The notes beneath the pieces were generated by a model that worked only from the letters and a program-made list of their open reading frames with translations, was not told the DNA's origin and did not search any database. A stretch of 64,000 bases of DNA from Branchiostoma floridae (Eukaryota > Chordata > Leptocardii > Amphioxiformes > Branchiostomatidae). Within the stretch, counting starts at the first letter, position 1, and the number at the start of each line of letters is the position of its first letter. This document shows, in pieces, positions 5,939-55,500 of this stretch. Made by a program: the position numbers and the translations under genes. Location: contig NC_049990.1 of NCBI RefSeq assembly GCF_000003815.2, positions 4,403,803 to 4,467,802 of the forward strand, written 5' to 3'.

Positions 5939-12380
<6,442 letters not shown>

Positions 12381-16771: not shown

Positions 16772-17368
16772 CTAAGTAAGCGTGGGTAGGGGGAGGGACG
16801 CACGCCTCGGTGTGTTATTATGGGTTCCCTCGCCTGGCATCACCCATGGCCAGTAGGTGTTAGGCAGTGTGGCGAGTGGGAGGGACGAACGCCGTGGAGT
16901 GGTATGGGTTCCCTGCACGGGTATCTCCCATGGCCAGTAGGTGTTAGGCAGTGTGGGTAGGGGGAGGGACGCACGTCGTGGGGTGCTACGGGTACCCTGC
17001 GCTGTGGTCTCACATGGCCAGTAGGTGTTGGACAGTGTGGGGACGGGGAGGGACGCATGCCGTGGTGTGTTACGGGTTCCCTGCTCTGTAATCTCCCATG
17101 GCCAGTAGGTGTTAGGCAGTGTGGGTAGGGGGAGGGACGCACGCCGTGGTGTGTTACGGGTTCCCTTCCCAGGGATCGCCCATGGCCAGTAGGTGTTAGG
17201 CAGTGTGGGTAGGGGGAGGGACGCACGCCGTGGTGTGTTACGGGTTCCCTTCCCAGGGATCGCCCATGGCCAGTAGGTGTTAGGCAGTGTGGGTAGGGGG
17301 AGGGAAGCACGCCGTGGTGTGTTACGGGGTCCCAACCCTGGGGTCTCCCATTGCCAGTAGGAGTTAGA
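16772..17368 (-). repeat. Coding minisatellite, 84-base unit x7 (TYWPW / RRASL)
   Basis: Tyr 854, 882, 910, 938, 966, 994 and 1022 are spaced exactly 28 residues apart. Ser follows RRA at 872, 900, 928, 984 and 1041, with RHAS (956) and RRSS (1012) variants. Two units are nearly identical in DNA (17105-17280), which points to recent array growth or gene conversion. Confidence 0.9.
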
Positions 17369-19918
17369 CGAGATGGGAAGAAATCGTCGCCGTGTTATAC
17401 TTTGGGCTCCCTCCCCTGAGTTGGCATATAACAGAAACGTATGAGTACCATATGCTCTAACACAATAGTGCCTAACTATCATGGGCAGGCTATACATAAC
17501 AAGTCTACCAGAAGTAGGCTGAGGACTTTGCAAAGTAGTGCAGTTTCCCCGGTAGGTTTGAAAGTTCTGCCTAGTTTTTGTAACTGTAGGAAGCGAAGGC
17601 TCTGCAGCAGCACTGTAAAAGGGAATGGGTTCATCATCGGGACTCTCTAAGATGTTACGGTCTGAGACGTCTAAGGAATGACCGAGGTCAGGTAGGGACT
17701 CGCAAGACTCTGTGGCATCTTGGACCTCCTGCCGTGTACGTCTTACGACAGGAAGCGTGTTATTCCATGGCAAAAGTGGGAAGGCAGGCAGAGGCCGCTG
17801 AGCAAGAGCTAAATGATCTGGGATCTCTGCGTAGGTGTGCGGAAATGCCGATAGAGGCCGCCGAGCAAGAGTTAGATGATCTGGGATCTCTGCGTATGTG
17901 TGGGGAAAGGCAGGCAGAGGCCGCTGAGCAAGAGCTAAATGATCTGGGATCTCTGCGTATGTGTGGGGAAGGGCAGGCAGGGGCCTTTGAGCAGCAGCCA
18001 GATGATCTGGGATCTCAGCGTAGTCATGTTGGAGGGTAGGCACTATGTCATCCGAGCTCCTCCGGTACACGGACTGAACAGATTGGAGGGCCGAAGGCAT
18101 TGCGGTACAGGCGACAAGACCAGGAATTGTCGCTATTTGTCCATTGTTAGCATCCATGTGGTTCTGTGGCCTGTTCCCTTTTCTTAACTTCGGCAGGCAC
18201 ATCTTCAGCAGAAATCCCAAAGAGAGGAACAAGATCGTAATGCCTACGACTGAAACAACAACTGGGATGACAGGGAACTTTGGTGATGGGGTGAATTGGT
18301 TAAGATTGGTTTGGAGAGTGCCCAGCTGCAATGTGGATGTCATTGTGGCCAGATTTGGAAGTGTCAGAGATCTTAACTCTTCTGCTGTTTGGGACCTTGT
18401 GCTGGGCTTGGGTGTTTGAAAGTTTGTTTCGTCTTTGTCGCTTTTGTGCACAGGGCATGCTTTGTGGAGCCTTTTCGGGACTGAGGGAATGTCTATGGAT
18501 AATGGGGCTTGCTTGTGTTTCGATAGGACGATACAAGTTAGATTGACGCTATCTGTGTGGTCACTGTCTGAGTTGGGTCTTGCTTTGTTTTCGTTTGAAT
18601 GGCCGACTGACTCTGCGGTGCTGACTATTTTCGTGTCTGGTGTGTCGTCAACCAGAATGGCAACATCTGCCTCGGTTGCGTTCCCTACACCCAAGGAAAC
18701 CAGCTGTACCGTAGAGTTATCCTTCAAAGCCACTGTAACGCCCAGGTTGTGTTCCCACACCCGTCTGCACTTTTCTCGGTACGAATGGTTGCTGGGGCCC
18801 CCCATTTCTGGGTTATCATTGGTAGCAATGACGACAAAACGTGTCAGAATGATTTGGTTTGGTTGAGGTTCGGTTAACTCGTCACAAGACGTAGGAATTT
18901 TAATGTATTCTGATGTGCGAGGCGCAACATCTTTTGAGTTAAACCTCCACGAAAACGACTTCTTGTTCCCTCCTGGGTTAATCCTGATACAGAAGGTGAA
19001 GCTGGGCACCTCAACAGATGTGAATAGCTTGTATGGTTGGAATTTGTCTATTTGCTGATACTGCGTGATTTGGCTTTCGTGCATTGAAACGATCCATTTC
19101 AATTTATGTGGCGTTTCATCGTGCACTGTTGTCAAGCTGTTACCACTGGCATAGAAGACTGCCCGATTCAGTGCCTGTCCCCTCAATACCCCCCAGTCAA
19201 GGCAGGACAGAGCACTTCTCTCTAGGTATAGTTCAAACAGACTCATGTTCTTGAACGTGCTTGGAGGAATGGTCTTAATGTCATTTCCCCCCAAGTACAG
19301 TTGCATCAGTGTTGTTTGGCCAAGGAACCAGGCGGGGTCTACGACCTGTAACGCGTTGTTCTCCAGGCCAAGGAAAAGAAGCCACGGCATGTTTCTGAAG
19401 CACCCTGGGTCAATCTGCGCTATTCGGTTATTGGATAAGGTTAGAAAACTAAGGGTCTCTAAACCGGTGAACCAGCTCTGTTTGACATGTGTCAGCCTGT
19501 TGAAATCTAGACTCAGATATTTCAGGTCTGAAAACCCAATCATCGTATTGTCCTCCAAATCTGAGATTTCATCCTCAATCAGAACCAAGGCTTTTACTGA
19601 TGACCGTTCAAATGATGGCATTTTCTTTCCTGATAGTACACCGAGTGGAGTTCCCCTGATGGCAAATGCTGTTTGTATGCCTAGCAAGCAGGGTACAGTA
19701 GGGATGGGAGTATTGCTGACACTAACAGTGCTATGTTGTTTGCATAAGATGCATGTACCCGATTGGTACAGAAGCATTTCGAGCATCGAGTCATCTAAAC
19801 ATTGCGACCAGCTCGCTTTTGCACAGCGAGGGAAGCAGAAACCTGCCGAGGCTGCCCCAGCAGTCACAAGGAACAGAGCAAATAGCATGGGTATGTTCGC
19901 CCCTGTTCTAAGAGCCAT
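16772..19918 (-). CDS. Single-exon LRR type I membrane receptor with SH2/SH3-ligand and RRASL repeat tail
   Basis: The 1048-codon frame starts at 19918 with a signal peptide (residues 1-25, MLFALFLVTAGAASA). It continues through a cysteine-bearing N-cap (Cys 28, 32, 40), about five LRRs (106-240; motifs LKYLSLDFNRL, LSFLTLSNNRI, LLFLGLENNAL, LMQLYLGGNDI), a folded extracellular part with Asn-X-Ser/Thr sites, and one membrane segment (549-572) followed by LRKGNR. The cytoplasmic tail has two arrays. Four 21-residue units at 631-714 each hold YAEIPDH (Tyr 633, 654, 675, 696) and RPLPAxP (RPLSAFP in the third). Seven 28-residue units at 851-1048 hold TYWPW and RRASLPLPTLPN. No TIR or kinase domain is present. 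It is probably a cell-surface recognition or adhesion receptor signalling through Src-type adaptors; ligand unknown. The C-terminus is uncertain because the array runs into a gap. The family is not named. Confidence 0.88.
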   Translation of the reverse strand: MALRTGANIPMLFALFLVTAGAASAGFCFPRCAKASWSQCLDDSMLEMLLYQSGTCILCKQHSTVSVSNTPIPTVPCLLGIQTAFAIRGTPLGVLSGKKMPSFERSSVKALVLIEDEISDLEDNTMIGFSDLKYLSLDFNRLTHVKQSWFTGLETLSFLTLSNNRIAQIDPGCFRNMPWLLFLGLENNALQVVDPAWFLGQTTLMQLYLGGNDIKTIPPSTFKNMSLFELYLERSALSCLDWGVLRGQALNRAVFYASGNSLTTVHDETPHKLKWIVSMHESQITQYQQIDKFQPYKLFTSVEVPSFTFCIRINPGGNKKSFSWRFNSKDVAPRTSEYIKIPTSCDELTEPQPNQIILTRFVVIATNDNPEMGGPSNHSYREKCRRVWEHNLGVTVALKDNSTVQLVSLGVGNATEADVAILVDDTPDTKIVSTAESVGHSNENKARPNSDSDHTDSVNLTCIVLSKHKQAPLSIDIPSVPKRLHKACPVHKSDKDETNFQTPKPSTRSQTAEELRSLTLPNLATMTSTLQLGTLQTNLNQFTPSPKFPVIPVVVSVVGITILFLSLGFLLKMCLPKLRKGNRPQNHMDANNGQIATIPGLVACTAMPSALQSVQSVYRRSSDDIVPTLQHDYAEIPDHLAAAQRPLPALPHTYAEIPDHLALAQRPLPAFPHTYAEIPDHLTLARRPLSAFPHTYAEIPDHLALAQRPLPAFPLLPWNNTLPVVRRTRQEVQDATESCESLPDLGHSLDVSDRNILESPDDEPIPFYSAAAEPSLPTVTKTRQNFQTYRGNCTTLQSPQPTSGRLVMYSLPMIVRHYCVRAYGTHTFLLYANSGEGAQSITRRRFLPISSNSYWQWETPGLGPRNTPRRASLPLPTLPNTYWPWAIPGKGTRNTPRRASLPLPTLPNTYWPWAIPGKGTRNTPRRASLPLPTLPNTYWPWEITEQGTRNTPRHASLPVPTLSNTYWPCETTAQGTRSTPRRASLPLPTLPNTYWPWEIPVQGTHTTPRRSSLPLATLPNTYWPWVMPGEGTHNNTPRRASLPLPTLT
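17777..18028 (-). repeat. Coding minisatellite, 63-base unit x4 (YAEIPDH / RPLPAFP)
   Basis: Four in-frame 21-residue units in the receptor's juxtamembrane tail. YAEI fits the pY-x-E-I type SH2-binding pattern and RPLPALP/RPLPAFP fits the class I SH3 ligand RxLPxxP. The third unit has Ser in place of the central Pro. Confidence 0.9.
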
Positions 19919-20094
19919 TACGTATGTCTCCTTGAAGCTGATAGAGGGGAACGTTGCGGCACTAACCTGGTTAGCTTTTTGGCAAAGGAGGAGGAGGAGG
20001 ACCAGCGAAATGTGGCCGCGGACAGAAGATGTGCTTGTCCGTCTGGCGGGGAAGTCGTGGCACCCTTAGACTGCAGTACTTCCTCTGCCTGTCC

Positions 20095-25080: not shown

Positions 25081-25778
25081 TATAGCTCAGTGCCTAAAGT
25101 TAATATTTTGTTTTACTTGCATATACATTAGCATAGTACAGAATTCTTAAAAGGCATTATTAAAAGGAAATAGGAAAGTGACACTTTTGCCTTATCTTTG
25201 CTGCCAAACTCCATAATAAATACAACTTGCTGCCAAAAAAGTATCTTGGAAGGTTTGCAAAAACATTCCAATGTTGCATATACGTCTAAGTAACTTTTAG
25301 TTGACTCATTACTCTCATATCTTACACTAGAACACTGCAACACTTGGTGTAACCAATTCAACATTGTACCTGCAGTTAATTTGAAACTTACTATGATACA
25401 CATTGCACATACAAGAAGGAACTGTTATGCAATTTTCTGCACATAGGGAATGACAACTTCATTGATTCAACTGTCTTAATTACACATCAGTATGTGCACA
25501 TCACAAAACAATCTCTGGACAAATGACATAAGCATTAACGGTTTGCTATTTAACCTTATTTTGAGACAAATGTATGTTTATAATGTCACTAGGGTGGATA
25601 ATGGTTTGTCTTAATCAGGTACAACTCTAGGTTTAGGTCCAGAGGTCCAGGTTTAGGTCTGGACCTGAGCCTGTCTAGTTGAAATGTCTGGTTCTGTTAA
25701 ACCATAATAATGTTGATATTTGAATGTTGACATTTGCACTTATTTTTGACACTTTTTTATTAGTTGCCAACAAGCAAG

Positions 25779-26234
25779 TGTAACAGTGGTGTTCAAGGAC
25801 TGCTAAACCGAAGACGCCTAACGGCTTAAGCCTTTTGGCCGAACGGTTTGCACGTTCCATTTGTGATCCGGCTGCCCGGGTTTGGCGCGGGTTCGAATCC
25901 CGGGAGTCGGGGTGTTGTTTCTTTCTGTTCTTACTCGCCCCTCTGGTTGTTTCAATGGTTCCCACGCCGGCCCTGTGATTAACAGGCTAGTATGTGCCAC
26001 ACAGGGATGTCGATCTCGGAGATTCGAGGACGAATCTTGAAAAGAAAAGGGGGAGTAGTGTAACAGTGGTGTTCAAGGACTGCTAAACCGAAGACGCCTA
26101 ACGGCTTAAGCCTTTTGGCCGAACGGTTTGCACGTTCCATTTGTGATCCGGCTGCCCGGGTTTGGCGCGGGTTCGAATCCCGGGAGTCGGGGTGTTGTTT
26201 CTTTCTGTTCTTACTCGCCCCTCTGGTTGTTTCA
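25779..26234. mobile_element. TRIM-type LTR miniature retrotransposon with tRNA-like Pol III promoter in each LTR
   Basis: Two direct repeats of 176 bases (25779-25954 and 26059-26234) look identical, begin TGTAACAG and end TTGTTTCA (TG...CA). They flank a 104-base interior. Directly after the first LTR comes ATGGTTCCCACGCCGGC, a TGG-initial primer-binding-site-like sequence; directly before the second comes AAAGAAAAGGGGGAG, a polypurine tract. CAAG flanks both sides (25775-25778, 26235-26238), a 4-base target duplication. There are no gag or pol frames, so it depends on another element. Each LTR carries an A box TGGCCGAACGG (25836-25846; 26116-26126) and a perfect B box GGTTCGAATCC (25890-25900; 26170-26180), spaced as in a tRNA-Leu/Ser-type gene. 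The acceptor stem does not pair, so this is not a working tRNA gene. Confidence 0.85.
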
Positions 26235-26775
26235 CAAGCATAAGTAAAATTAAAAACCACTTTTATGTTCTTCAAACATAAGCTAGAAGAATGTTTATTC
26301 ATTTATCCCCTATAAGTTGTCTTGATAAAAACTTTCCGCTTTTTTGTCTCTCTTCACACCTTTCAGGATTTCTGGACTCAATTCTACGGTGTTGTACCAT
26401 GTCTGGACCAGATCCAGTGAACCGGTACCAACCCTTATAATTATCTGCAACACATTCCCTTCTCAAGAAAGCCCCAATTTGCTTTCATGAACGTATAAGA
26501 AGTCTCTGTCTTTTGGGCAGAAGGTATTATGTTCCTCTAACTGTTGAATTGCATACATGCACTACATAAATCTGTACAACTGTGTTGCATGCTTTTGTTC
26601 CTTCATTTTACATTAAGTAACGTTAGGTCATGAAAATCTCTGATTGCATCTGTCATATTACAGCTCAACAACACTCACTATTCCGTCATACTCTATCATC
26701 TGTTGCTACCCGAATTAGACATGCTTGCACATAGATGTAGAGGCTTGATGGCAGCCCGCCATCAGCTTCTGTTTC

Positions 26776-49299: not shown

Positions 49300-50460
49300 C
49301 AGAAATAGCCAAACATGAACGGGTAGCTTTTTATACTGCCTCAAAATAGTCAGCCTTAACACGGTTGTTAGATTTACTTAGAAAGTAACCCCACGAAGAC
49401 CTCAAGCGGTCATGGACGTTTTAATGATCTCAATGGAACAAACCGTACAGTCAGTACTCTGAAGACCAGAAAAAAACACATGAACAGGCAACTTTTTATA
49501 CTGCCTCAAAATAGACATCCTTGACAAGTTTAATAGATTTTCTTGAAAAGTGACCCCACGAAGACCTCAAGCAGTCATGGACATTTTAATGATCTCAATG
49601 GAACAAACCGTACAGTTAGTACTTTGAAGACCAGAAAAAAACACATGAACAGGCAACTTTTTATACTGCCTCAAAATAGACAACCTTAACAAGGTTGATA
49701 GATTTTCTTCAAAAGTGACCCCACTAACTGACTGAGCCTCAAGCGGTCATGGACATTTTAATGATTCAAGTGGTACAAACAGTACATGTATTAGTCAGTG
49801 CTCTGAAGACCAGAAATAGCCAAATATGAACAGGCAATTTTTTATACTGCCTCAAAATAGTAGTCCTTAACAAGGTTGATAGATTTTCTTCAAAAGTGAC
49901 CCCACTAACTGACTAAGCCTCAAGCGGTCATGGACGTTTTAATGATTCAAGTGGTACAAACCATACATGTATGAGTCAGTGCTCTGAAGACCAGAAAAAG
50001 CAAACATGAACAGGCAACTTTTTATACCGACTCAAAATAGACATCCTTAACAAGGTTGTTAGACTTACTTAGAAAGTAACCCCACGAAGACCTCAAGAAG
50101 TCATGGGCGTTTTAATGATCTCAGTGGTACAAACCATACATGTACGAGTCAGTACTCTGAAGACCAGAAATAGCCAAACACTAACGGGCAACTTTTTGTA
50201 CTGCCTCAAAATAGTCTTGAAACCTTGACAAGTGACCCTACGAAGACCTCAAACGGTCATGGAAATTTTAATGAATTTGAAAGTTTATTTTCAAGTTCAT
50301 GCCCAATAAAGTCAAAGTCAACATAGGGAACATACATATGACAGTGGATAGTGATAAATATTATTGTAAAAAGAGACTACTCAAATACTAGTGTTGGCTA
50401 TATCTACACAGGTTGGGTTTGACTTCTTTTTGGGAAGCAGAGGAAGATGCTAATGATCCC
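49300..50460. repeat. Satellite array, six 165-181-bp units
   Basis: TATACTGCCTCAAAATAG begins at 49332, 49497, 49662, 49843, 50023 and 50197 (one variant). Each unit then has CTTRACAAGGTTGWTAGA, AGTRACCCCACKAA, CCTCAAGCGGTCATGGAC, TTTTAATGAT and CTGAAGACCAGAAA. The last unit is split by an insertion at 50275-50450. Confidence 0.9.
50275..50450 (-). mobile_element. Retroelement 3' end inserted in the satellite array
   Basis: 176 bases carrying GGTTGGGTTTGACTTCTTTTT and TTCAAGTTCATGCCC, matching 9525-9800 and 10636-10905. It is flanked by TAATGA (50269-50274 and 50451-50456), a target duplication within the satellite word TTTTAATGAT, so it inserted after the array formed. Confidence 0.75.
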
Positions 50461-52573: not shown

Positions 52574-55500
52574 TGTATTGTACACGTGTATGTTTGTATA
52601 TAATTATGATTGTAGGAGGAGGCTGTTATCAATCTTGATTTGATCGTTTTCTACCACACAAGTTTCTATGATTACATCTCTGGTGCTGAATTTCAATTGT
52701 ATCATTCTGCCTCTTTGATCAGTCAGCAGATTTTTGTGGGGAATACTTGCATTTGTCTAAGCCATGGCTTCTGATCAGGATATTATACATTTCTCCAGCT
52801 CTATGTTGGCTATCATTTGGTCAACTTTAACATCTGTTTTTCAGTGTTTAGTTGGTTGGTATATCTATATGTCTCTCCTTGGTGCTGATTGACTATCACT
52901 CTTCTGGGCTCAACATACTGTCTGCATATGCATTTTGTACACCAAAATTTGGAGCTGCACACAAAGTGAAATTCTTTGTTGGTTAAGTTCAACCCTGTCC
53001 TTGGTGCTGAAAGTAGGATTCTTGTGCTTGTGTGATATTTGGGGCAAAAGATGGCAGTATGTTTTTGTATACTATTTTTTTTTTAAATAGTTAATCCTAG
53101 AGCTAGCCAGAATCTAGACTTTCAATTTTTAGTTTTAGTGTCTTTATTAAGGTTCCTATTGTTTTGGAAAGACCAACGGTTTTTGTTGCAAAAGGTTTAG
53201 TATCAGACAACAAGATCAGCATGTTCGATAATAGTAAGTCCAACATCTGTTGTGTGTTTTCCACAACAGCAGTCCCCGTGCAAACATGATTAAGTATTGT
53301 TTTAATTGATCCTAATCAAAGTCTTCACCAGTGTTCATTGTGCACAATTTGTAAAAAAAGAAGTTTGGCATAGATTTTTGCTTTTCGTAGATTTGTCCTG
53401 ACATTACAAAGAAATGATTACATGATGGAGATATACATACCAGGTTGATATAAACAGACATAGCAATTTTGTGAAGAACTTCTAGACAGTATTACGCTTG
53501 ATTATGGTTGAGGATGTCTGCATTTCTGTTCAGGTAAATCTTAGAAATCAATTTCTTTATTATGCAGAACTCGAAATTCATTTTTGGAAGAAAAATTTTG
53601 GGTGTACCACACAACAGCTGTTGTTTGTTTTCCACAACATGCAGTTCCCGTGCATATGTGATTAAGTATTGTTTTAATTGATCCTAATCACCAGTGATCG
53701 GTTCCAGGGTGTGTTGATCGATGAGGTCTGTCTGTTGTCACTTTTCTTCAAACATCTGACGATGTTCCTTTGTAGGGAATTGACATATCTTCTCTATATC
53801 CGAATACTTCTAGAAATTTCGATCAGTTAGTTTACAAAAATTACACACAGTTTGCTTGTTATATATCTGACTGGCATGATTTTTTTGTGAAGATATTTTG
53901 AGAACATTATTTGTTTTTATTTTTTGACTTCATTTTCAAATTATTAAATTAGAAAATTGAAAAAATTGTACCACCCCCTCAATCCCCCGCTTTGCCATAT
54001 TGACAAACTGATCTCAGAAAAAATTGAAAAAATTATGACTGAGATTACTGTGCACCCCCTCCCCTCTTAGTAGACAATAGTTGAATCTGCATTACTTAGT
54101 CCACTAAACCAGTACCAAGGATGATTAATTGATTTGGTCTAATAATAGACATTGTTTACCATAGAGAACCTACCATATAAAAACTGTATGACTGAGTCTT
54201 TAATGACCCTGAGAACAAAAGATGCTTACAGAGGAACTCTTCTTTGTGATTCATGAATAAATTTGCTTTGTCACCATTCAAGGAAATGTTAGAATGACCT
54301 TATTATGCTGCCTTGACCTTGAGTTTGACATTGTAAATGTTCCGTGCTCTTTAATACCATTATTTCATGTGTCACAAAACACATAAACGTAAGAAAAACT
54401 GTCCTTCTAGACTCGTATAACGCGGAGTGAGACATTTTTGATTAAGTTGGTTTATAGTACTGTAACGTTGCAGTGCGTTTGTAAGGATTTTCCTTTGGGT
54501 GTGGCTTTTTCCGGTTGCAGACTCGAGATTTTCCCATGCGAGGATAAATTATTCAATAAGCTGAGACCTGGTGATTTTACGTGAGACACTTCCAGTTGTT
54601 TGTGTACCGAGGCTGCAGAAGGCAGGGACGTTTTTTTCTTGACATTTGACTGGAAATGGCACTTCTTGAAATTGTAAGTAAACCCTTTCAATTGTTAGGA
54701 GTAGTGTAAGGGTTTTAAAAACTAGATTTTGAATGCTATTGTGAAAATAGCTGTAGCATTGAGCAAGAAATACCTTGCTAAGAAAAATGTTCATTCTGAA
54801 TTATTAAGAAAAATAAGGGCACGCAATTCCATTGAAACTACCTATATATACCTTTTAGCCTTATTGTATTGTTTTGGGATTTGTGAGTGTAACTGTGTAT
54901 CATGTAACAGTGGTGTTATGTTAGAAGTGTTTTTTTAAATGAATAAATAGGAATTAGGATAACAGGCTTGCTGCTACACATCAGAGGTCAAAAATCATAT
55001 TGTCAATAGCTGTGTTGCCTCAAATAGGCAGTTTGAATTTCTTTTACCTCATGGAAATCATATTGTTGTACACGTATCTATATGATCTTATGTGTTACAG
55101 TCATTGACACGTATTAAGTGGCCTAATATGTTGGGCAAGTTTTCACAGAATATCTGGATTAACACAGGATGAATAGGATTGCAGTGGATAAGTTATAATA
55201 TACTAATAAGTAAATATTGAAATAGCCGATTCTTGGGATATGCAATGCATTCTTCTACTTCCAAAATCATATCTTTTTTGGCGTTTCTACTTCAATGTTC
55301 CAGCAAGAATTTCTTTATGTCCTCATATCAACCAGGAATCCTACTAATAAATATACTTTTTTTTTTAAAATTCGAAAGCCTTGTTCAGACATTGAAATAC
55401 TATGCTGGAGAGAGTAGTGGTCTTTTTAGTACAACCTCAGTATTTCTAACTTACAAATTCTTGACAAATCTTTTGGTGTTTTTGCATAAACTGGTCATGA

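Follow-up and report, generated by a model that had tools for sequence, protein, structure and literature searches.

Described small LTR elements and the lancelet locus

The closest described elements are those named Helenus (TRIMp3; Kojima 2024, PMC10886601), TRIMs with tRNA-like LTRs, a Gypsy-like primer-binding site (PBS) and, in animals, a 4-bp target site duplication (TSD), whose box A reads TRGCY and whose box B reads GGTTC. They were reported from coelacanth, sturgeon, paddlefish, zebrafish and its relatives, molluscs, wasps and other hosts, and priming by tRNA-Glu was predicted for those of bivalves; how RNA polymerase III (Pol III)-driven animal Helenus find a helper was open, a likeness of their PBS to that of Gypsy having been reported (PMC10886601). 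Cassandra, in plants, carries a 5S-type Pol III promoter inside its LTRs and also forms tandem arrays (PMC7215508), and the nemertean TRIM Ajax has a small-RNA promoter in its LTR, likewise of the 5S type, together with a 5-bp TSD (PMC10886601). Retrozymes are LTR elements, small and non-autonomous, whose LTRs are unusual and which carry hammerhead ribozymes (PMC10886601). Short, non-coding SINEs derived from tRNA have Pol III boxes, lack LTRs and insert by LINE-dependent target priming.

The element described here lies at positions 25779-26234 of the window, the whole 64,000-nucleotide stretch of Branchiostoma floridae DNA that was analysed. At 456 bp (below 1000 bp), with two LTRs, a PBS, a polypurine tract (PPT) and no protein coding, it is a TRIM, and with tRNA-like boxes A and B in its LTRs, a Gypsy-like PBS directed at a tRNA 3' end, a PPT and a 4-bp TSD it belongs, by published features, with Helenus. 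It shares with Cassandra and Ajax a small-RNA promoter inside the LTR, as judged by its boxes, and differs from both in promoter type and from Ajax also in TSD length; Rfam returned no 5S rRNA match in the window or element, no family at the gathering threshold in the window, and no hammerhead for the element at E up to 10. Unlike tRNA-derived SINEs it has LTRs, a PBS, a PPT and 4-bp TSDs, and it was classed neither with those SINEs nor with Cassandra or the Retrozymes. The original prediction presented an animal TRIM with a tRNA-type promoter, and the features it described are present apart from the tRNA-Leu/Ser isotype; the implied novelty falls because Helenus had already been published. 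The main text of that paper has no occurrence of "Branchiostoma", "lancelet" or "amphioxus", and a literature search found no report of lancelet TRIMs or Helenus, so that the lancelet member and the evidence on its helper appear new within a known kind. Compared with published animal Helenus, for which Gypsy similarity was described at the PBS (PMC10886601), the lancelet family adds captured primers, a palindrome with a T-run before box A, a likely helper and a chimera flanked by a TSD of its own. Tandem arrays, found in the lancelet family, were also described for the zebrafish Helenus LTR-11_DR (PMC10886601).

Taken together, the evidence below makes it highly probable (roughly 0.86) that this is a Helenus-type TRIM that is transcribed by Pol III, packaged by a Ty3-type element, primed by tRNA-Glu and integrated with a 4-bp duplication. 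The tRNA-type boxes of the 5' LTR would recruit Pol III, and transcription would run into the 3' LTR; the RNA would be packaged by the Ty3-type element, as shared ends and a chimera suggest, and reverse transcription would start from tRNA-Glu at the PBS, as captured primers in relatives indicate, and be completed through the PPT. Insertion, which left the observed 4-bp duplications, would be the work of the helper's integrase. The mechanism of the original prediction thus largely stands.

Structure of the element

The LTRs, at 25779-25954 and 26059-26234, are each 176 bp long, 100% identical and bounded by TG...CA, and CAAG is duplicated in the flanks at 25775-25778 and 26235-26238. All features of the element are given on the + strand. 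The 104-bp internal region (25955-26058) is non-coding and begins with the PBS TGGTTCCCACGCCGGCC (25956-25972), which starts 1 base 3' of the 5' LTR and is close to the complement of the tRNA-Glu 3' end; near its other end the polypurine tract GAAAAGAAAAGGGGGAG stops 3 bases short of the 3' LTR, with TAG in between. No stop-to-stop frame of at least 120 aa overlaps the element. The identical LTRs, PBS-like site, polypurine tract, CAAG duplication and lack of coding sequence that had been read from the sequence at the outset were all confirmed.

Box A lies at LTR position 58 and an exact box B at LTR position 112, with fitting spacing, which places them at 25836-25846 and 25890-25900 (GGTTCGAATCC) in the 5' LTR and at 26116-26126 and 26170-26180 in the 3' LTR. 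The pair appeared in 0/20,000 dinucleotide shuffles of the LTR and box B alone in 38/20,000, and a scan of both strands found no second pair elsewhere in the window, in agreement with the A box and perfect B box predicted for each LTR. The assignment of these boxes to a tRNA-Leu/Ser type is unsupported, ARAGORN and Rfam finding no tRNA in the window or element; a functional tRNA was rejected on the same grounds, and only the two boxes are therefore tRNA-like. Folding of the tRNA-like part was no better than that of shuffles (z -0.60). A 15-base match at window position 54903 was set aside as isolated.

Copies, target sites and tandem forms in the genome

The genome search covered a 513-Mb assembly of 431 contigs. 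A DNA search with the element, in which the best 40 of 1095 candidates were scored, placed matches of 97-100% identity in at least 40 distinct places dispersed over many contigs, and 44 of the 46 matches listed cover at least 445 of the 456 bases. The PPT/LTR junction with up to 3 mismatches occurred 276 times, the exact 18-base junction 286 times, the exact PBS 17-mer 125 times and a U5 27-mer with up to 2 mismatches 587 times, each reversed pattern occurring 0 times, and the genome therefore holds a few hundred copies. Some of the U5 matches listed are isolated, as expected of solo LTRs. Within the 35 two-LTR copies among the best 40, which are those closest to the window copy, 13 LTR pairs are identical, with a mean of 1.1 substitutions per pair.

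An exact 4-bp TSD was present in 34 of the 40 best-match places and in 57 of 70 scorable loci, out of 80 examined (10 unscored) that were chosen non-randomly as the 40 best matches plus 40 exact-PPT loci on contigs C1-C4. The other 13 scorable loci comprise 11 without a TSD, one with 5 bp and one with 3 bp, by a script that missed two visible TSDs (L038, L047). Seven of the 57 have the flank TTCC in common, and the number of distinct TSD sites is at most 51, since the TTCC-flanked insertion sits inside another amplified repeat. The copy count with 4-base TSDs that the original prediction had proposed thus describes a dispersed family.

Five of the 40 best matches have the form LTR-interior-LTR-interior-LTR, each with a single outer 4-bp TSD, and in L049 the middle LTR comes from another subfamily. 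Template switching during reverse transcription is reportedly a route to complex insertions in plants. Such tandem forms, with the tRNA-type boxes, are what could be expected if a SINE or tRNA pseudogene had been duplicated in tandem and the LTR appearance were accidental, an explanation that we consider extremely improbable and reject because the copies are dispersed and flanked by 4-bp TSDs; moreover, each of the five tandem forms has one outer TSD, and the PBS, the PPT and the captured tRNA primers described below are those of LTR-type reverse transcription. Copies in tandem only, or insertions lacking a TSD, had been named beforehand as the outcomes that would speak for simple duplication, and neither describes the family, the copies being spread over many contigs and most scorable ones having a 4-bp TSD.

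Several loci are unusual in form. A Helenus insertion with the TSD TTCC appears to lie inside another multi-copy repeat at L052, L055, L056, L064, L066, L070, L073, L078 and L082, and this insertion, riding in the repeat, may spread by two routes; in the first five of these, identity to the LTRs of the window element is 81-83% for the 5' LTR and 96-99% for the 3' LTR. L048 and L060, which seem to have a different interior, were rejected as the helper, being truncated copies of this insertion in the co-amplified repeat. L061 contains three head-to-tail 148-base units of PPT and LTR start, without a PBS, the fuller LTR being last. About 1.2 kb of foreign sequence stands between PBS and PPT at L114 (C2:561050-563000) and L115 (C10:14468050-14469900), where the LTRs come from two subfamilies and the inserts differ at their starts.

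Captured tRNA-Glu primers

The PBS of the window element matches the complement of tRNA-Glu in 14 of its first 16 bases (by eye), and some diverged copies, whose interiors start TGGTTCCCACACCG, fit tRNA-Glu better. A pattern for the tRNA-Glu 3' end gave 53 genome matches, and 28 were inspected, a non-random set in which L029, L085, L091 and L092 were chosen as neighbours of Helenus matches and from which clustered matches on contig C12, possibly true genes, were left out. In 22 of the 28, an LTR-like 3' end is followed, at the position of a PBS, by an antisense tRNA with its CCA (read as TGG); five have no CCA and a run of T5-T6 downstream, like true genes (by eye), and one is ambiguous. Without the four neighbours, captures make up 18 of 24. 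A script located an upstream LTR start for 17 of the 22, that at L089 being spurious, and six of the 22 extend to the first base of the tRNA. ARAGORN called tRNA-Glu(CTC) in 5/5 loci submitted, all of them captures.

The sequence beyond the tRNA differs between captures: at L091 it is a U5 end and the TSD CATT, at L090 another LTR with the TSD TCTC, and at L088 the tRNA runs nearly directly into the flank, with the TSD GATA (all three TSDs by eye). Eukaryotic tRNA genes are not known to encode CCA, and reverse transcriptase usually copies about 18 bases of a tRNA primer. From their sequence, the captures would be the expected product of reverse transcriptase copying beyond those bases. The original prediction had suggested comparing the PBS with tRNA 3' ends; the match to tRNA-Glu is large, and the captured primers support its use. 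A narrow literature search found no report of such tRNA primer captures. Copies of tRNA-Glu with a CCA tail reveal the primer directly, and LTR elements can in this way inflate tRNA gene counts.

A likely Ty3-type helper

The capture at L089 belongs to a different LTR, 511 bp long, that contains AATAAA, is flanked by the TSD ACAA (by eye) and matches neither of the A/B box patterns. When 435 bases of this LTR region were used as the query and the best 40 of 97 candidates were scored, the 41 matches listed included three same-strand pairs spaced 7.8-7.9 kb. In one copy of this element, two separate segments of 1.3 kb gave matches to RVT_1, RNase H, Integrase_H2C2 and rve, which stand in this order in Ty3-type elements; a segment from the gag side of another copy matched no Pfam family. 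TSDs of 4 bp flank two of the copies (CTGC, GAAT). For the larger partner sharing PBS and PPT that the original prediction had proposed to look for, a likely candidate was thus found in a Ty3-type element of about 8 kb.

The ends of its interior resemble those of Helenus. Its LTRs are followed by TGGTTCC[CT]ACAC... and then TGTGAATAAC, similar to the first 28 bases from 25956 of the window element, and its 3' LTR is preceded by ATTTGAGGACAAAT...GGGGGAGGTAG, similar to the polypurine-tract region at 26023-26058 (PPT itself 26039-26055). Against the window interior, 0/1000 letter shuffles were as good as the PBS/leader and 9/1000 as good as the PPT region; for four other Helenus interiors the values were 0-2/1000 at the 5' end and 6-39/1000 in the PPT region, the likeness there being weak for one subfamily (39/1000). 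The likeness extends over no more than about 28 bases at one end of the interior and about 40 at the other; at the 5' end it is in part the PBS itself, which a common primer alone would explain. The two families also have the 5' tip TGTAAC and the TSD length in common, and each has a tRNA-Glu capture. The 3' tip is GTTATA in the copies with the TSDs CTGC and GAAT, and TTTCA in Helenus and in the helper at L089. This comparison of sequences makes the 8-kb Ty3-type family the likely helper of Helenus, in support of the predicted mobilisation by a Ty3-type element, and a closer helper may exist.

At L117 an LTR of this helper passes, at the PBS, into a Helenus interior and then a Helenus LTR (97% for each), and with the outer flank read from L136 the insertion has GGGT on both sides. 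A single TSD enclosing both the helper LTR and the Helenus LTR suggests that their union preceded integration, as expected of strand transfer between RNAs packaged together; this is a single case, for which the chance of a 4-base match is about 1/256. Through this TSD-flanked chimera, a Helenus family is linked to one specific Ty3-type family. Alternatively, Helenus may be moved by some other family that uses the same primer, the chimera being a product of later recombination. The short extent of the interior similarity, the partly different 3' LTR tips, and a survey that covered one Ty3-type family and yielded one chimera all leave room for it, yet the chimera's own GGGT points to joining before integration, and the family found shares 5' tip, TSD length and primer and has a tRNA-Glu capture of its own. 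We therefore consider another helper unlikely, if a serious contender, and the 8-kb family the better candidate.

Helper and Helenus sequences also stand side by side at L017, L018 and L106, which may be ordinary nested insertions. At L128 (C10:6246623-6250056), which overlaps L017, a helper LTR, an inverted Helenus and a further helper LTR follow one another, seemingly placed between two helper elements, with helper LTR ends lost at the junctions.

The Pol III boxes and the palindrome before box A

If the element were a canonical TRIM transcribed by Pol II, its tRNA-like boxes would be passengers. That the palindrome and T-run described below are not retained in every copy suits this view; against it, of 129 distinct LTRs from the various subfamilies, 117 have an exact GGTTCGANNCC box B, and the helper LTR at L089, by contrast, has AATAAA and no match to the box patterns. 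Pol II transcription is therefore improbable, and transcription by Pol III, predicted from the boxes, is preferred.

Diverged subfamilies have a short palindrome directly before a T-run at about LTR position 55, where it overlaps or abuts box A. In the window element the 10-base palindrome GGCTTAAGCC with TTTT, a candidate Pol III terminator or R element, lies at 25823-25836 in the 5' LTR and at 26103-26116 in the 3' LTR; at the latter site a Pol III transcript begun in the 5' LTR might end. Variants include GCTCTTGAGC, GCACTAGTGC and GCTCTAGAGC, as well as palindromes of other length, e.g., GCCTGTCAGGC. The mean stem before box A is 2.9 pairs, and that at the remaining T-runs of these LTRs 0.07 (46 distinct segments). 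The first three pairs are kept in 131 of 153 distinct LTR sequences, a set that includes a few rows that are not true LTRs; pairs were counted from the T-run because the MAFFT alignment shifts one group by a column. Pairs 2, 3 and 4 vary on both sides between groups. Counted by distinct 10-mers, 5/16 keep the first three pairs and 11/16 misfit in the T-run register, and at offsets from -40 to +89 other than the palindrome's own, none had above a quarter of 10-mers paired.

TTTT as a fixed terminator was reduced to a weak hypothesis, since the majority LTR reads TTTAT and no T4 occurs in 25 of the 40 best-match copies. A T4 is also absent from 790/20,000 shuffles of the majority LTR, which makes its absence weak evidence, and from 12/5000 shuffles of the whole element, in which the LTR counts twice. 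By analogy with the 18-bp terminal redundancy of Cassandra (PMC10886601), the palindrome and T-run could possibly be a Pol III terminator that gives a short R; in the text of that article the word "terminator" occurs once, for Cassandra. Alternatively, they might be a dimerisation or protein site. As a tentative and rather doubtful combination, we propose a self-contained Pol III LTR unit, terminating in the 3' LTR at the palindrome and T-run near position 55 with a very short R, together with frequent primer read-through that would make many genomic tRNA-Glu look-alikes captures and not genes. The palindrome and T-run make the end point of a Pol III LTR transcript testable. Diverged LTR relatives with a T-run before box A lie near or beside other copies at L088 (near 1886) and L026 (296-500).

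Other repeats in the window

Elsewhere in the window, direct repeats of 165-179 bases lie at 49313-50168, and two inverted arms of 115 bases, with 1.1 kb between them, lie at 9527-10899. An open frame of 1097 aa on the - strand (16772-20065) contains 84-base and 63-base repeats.
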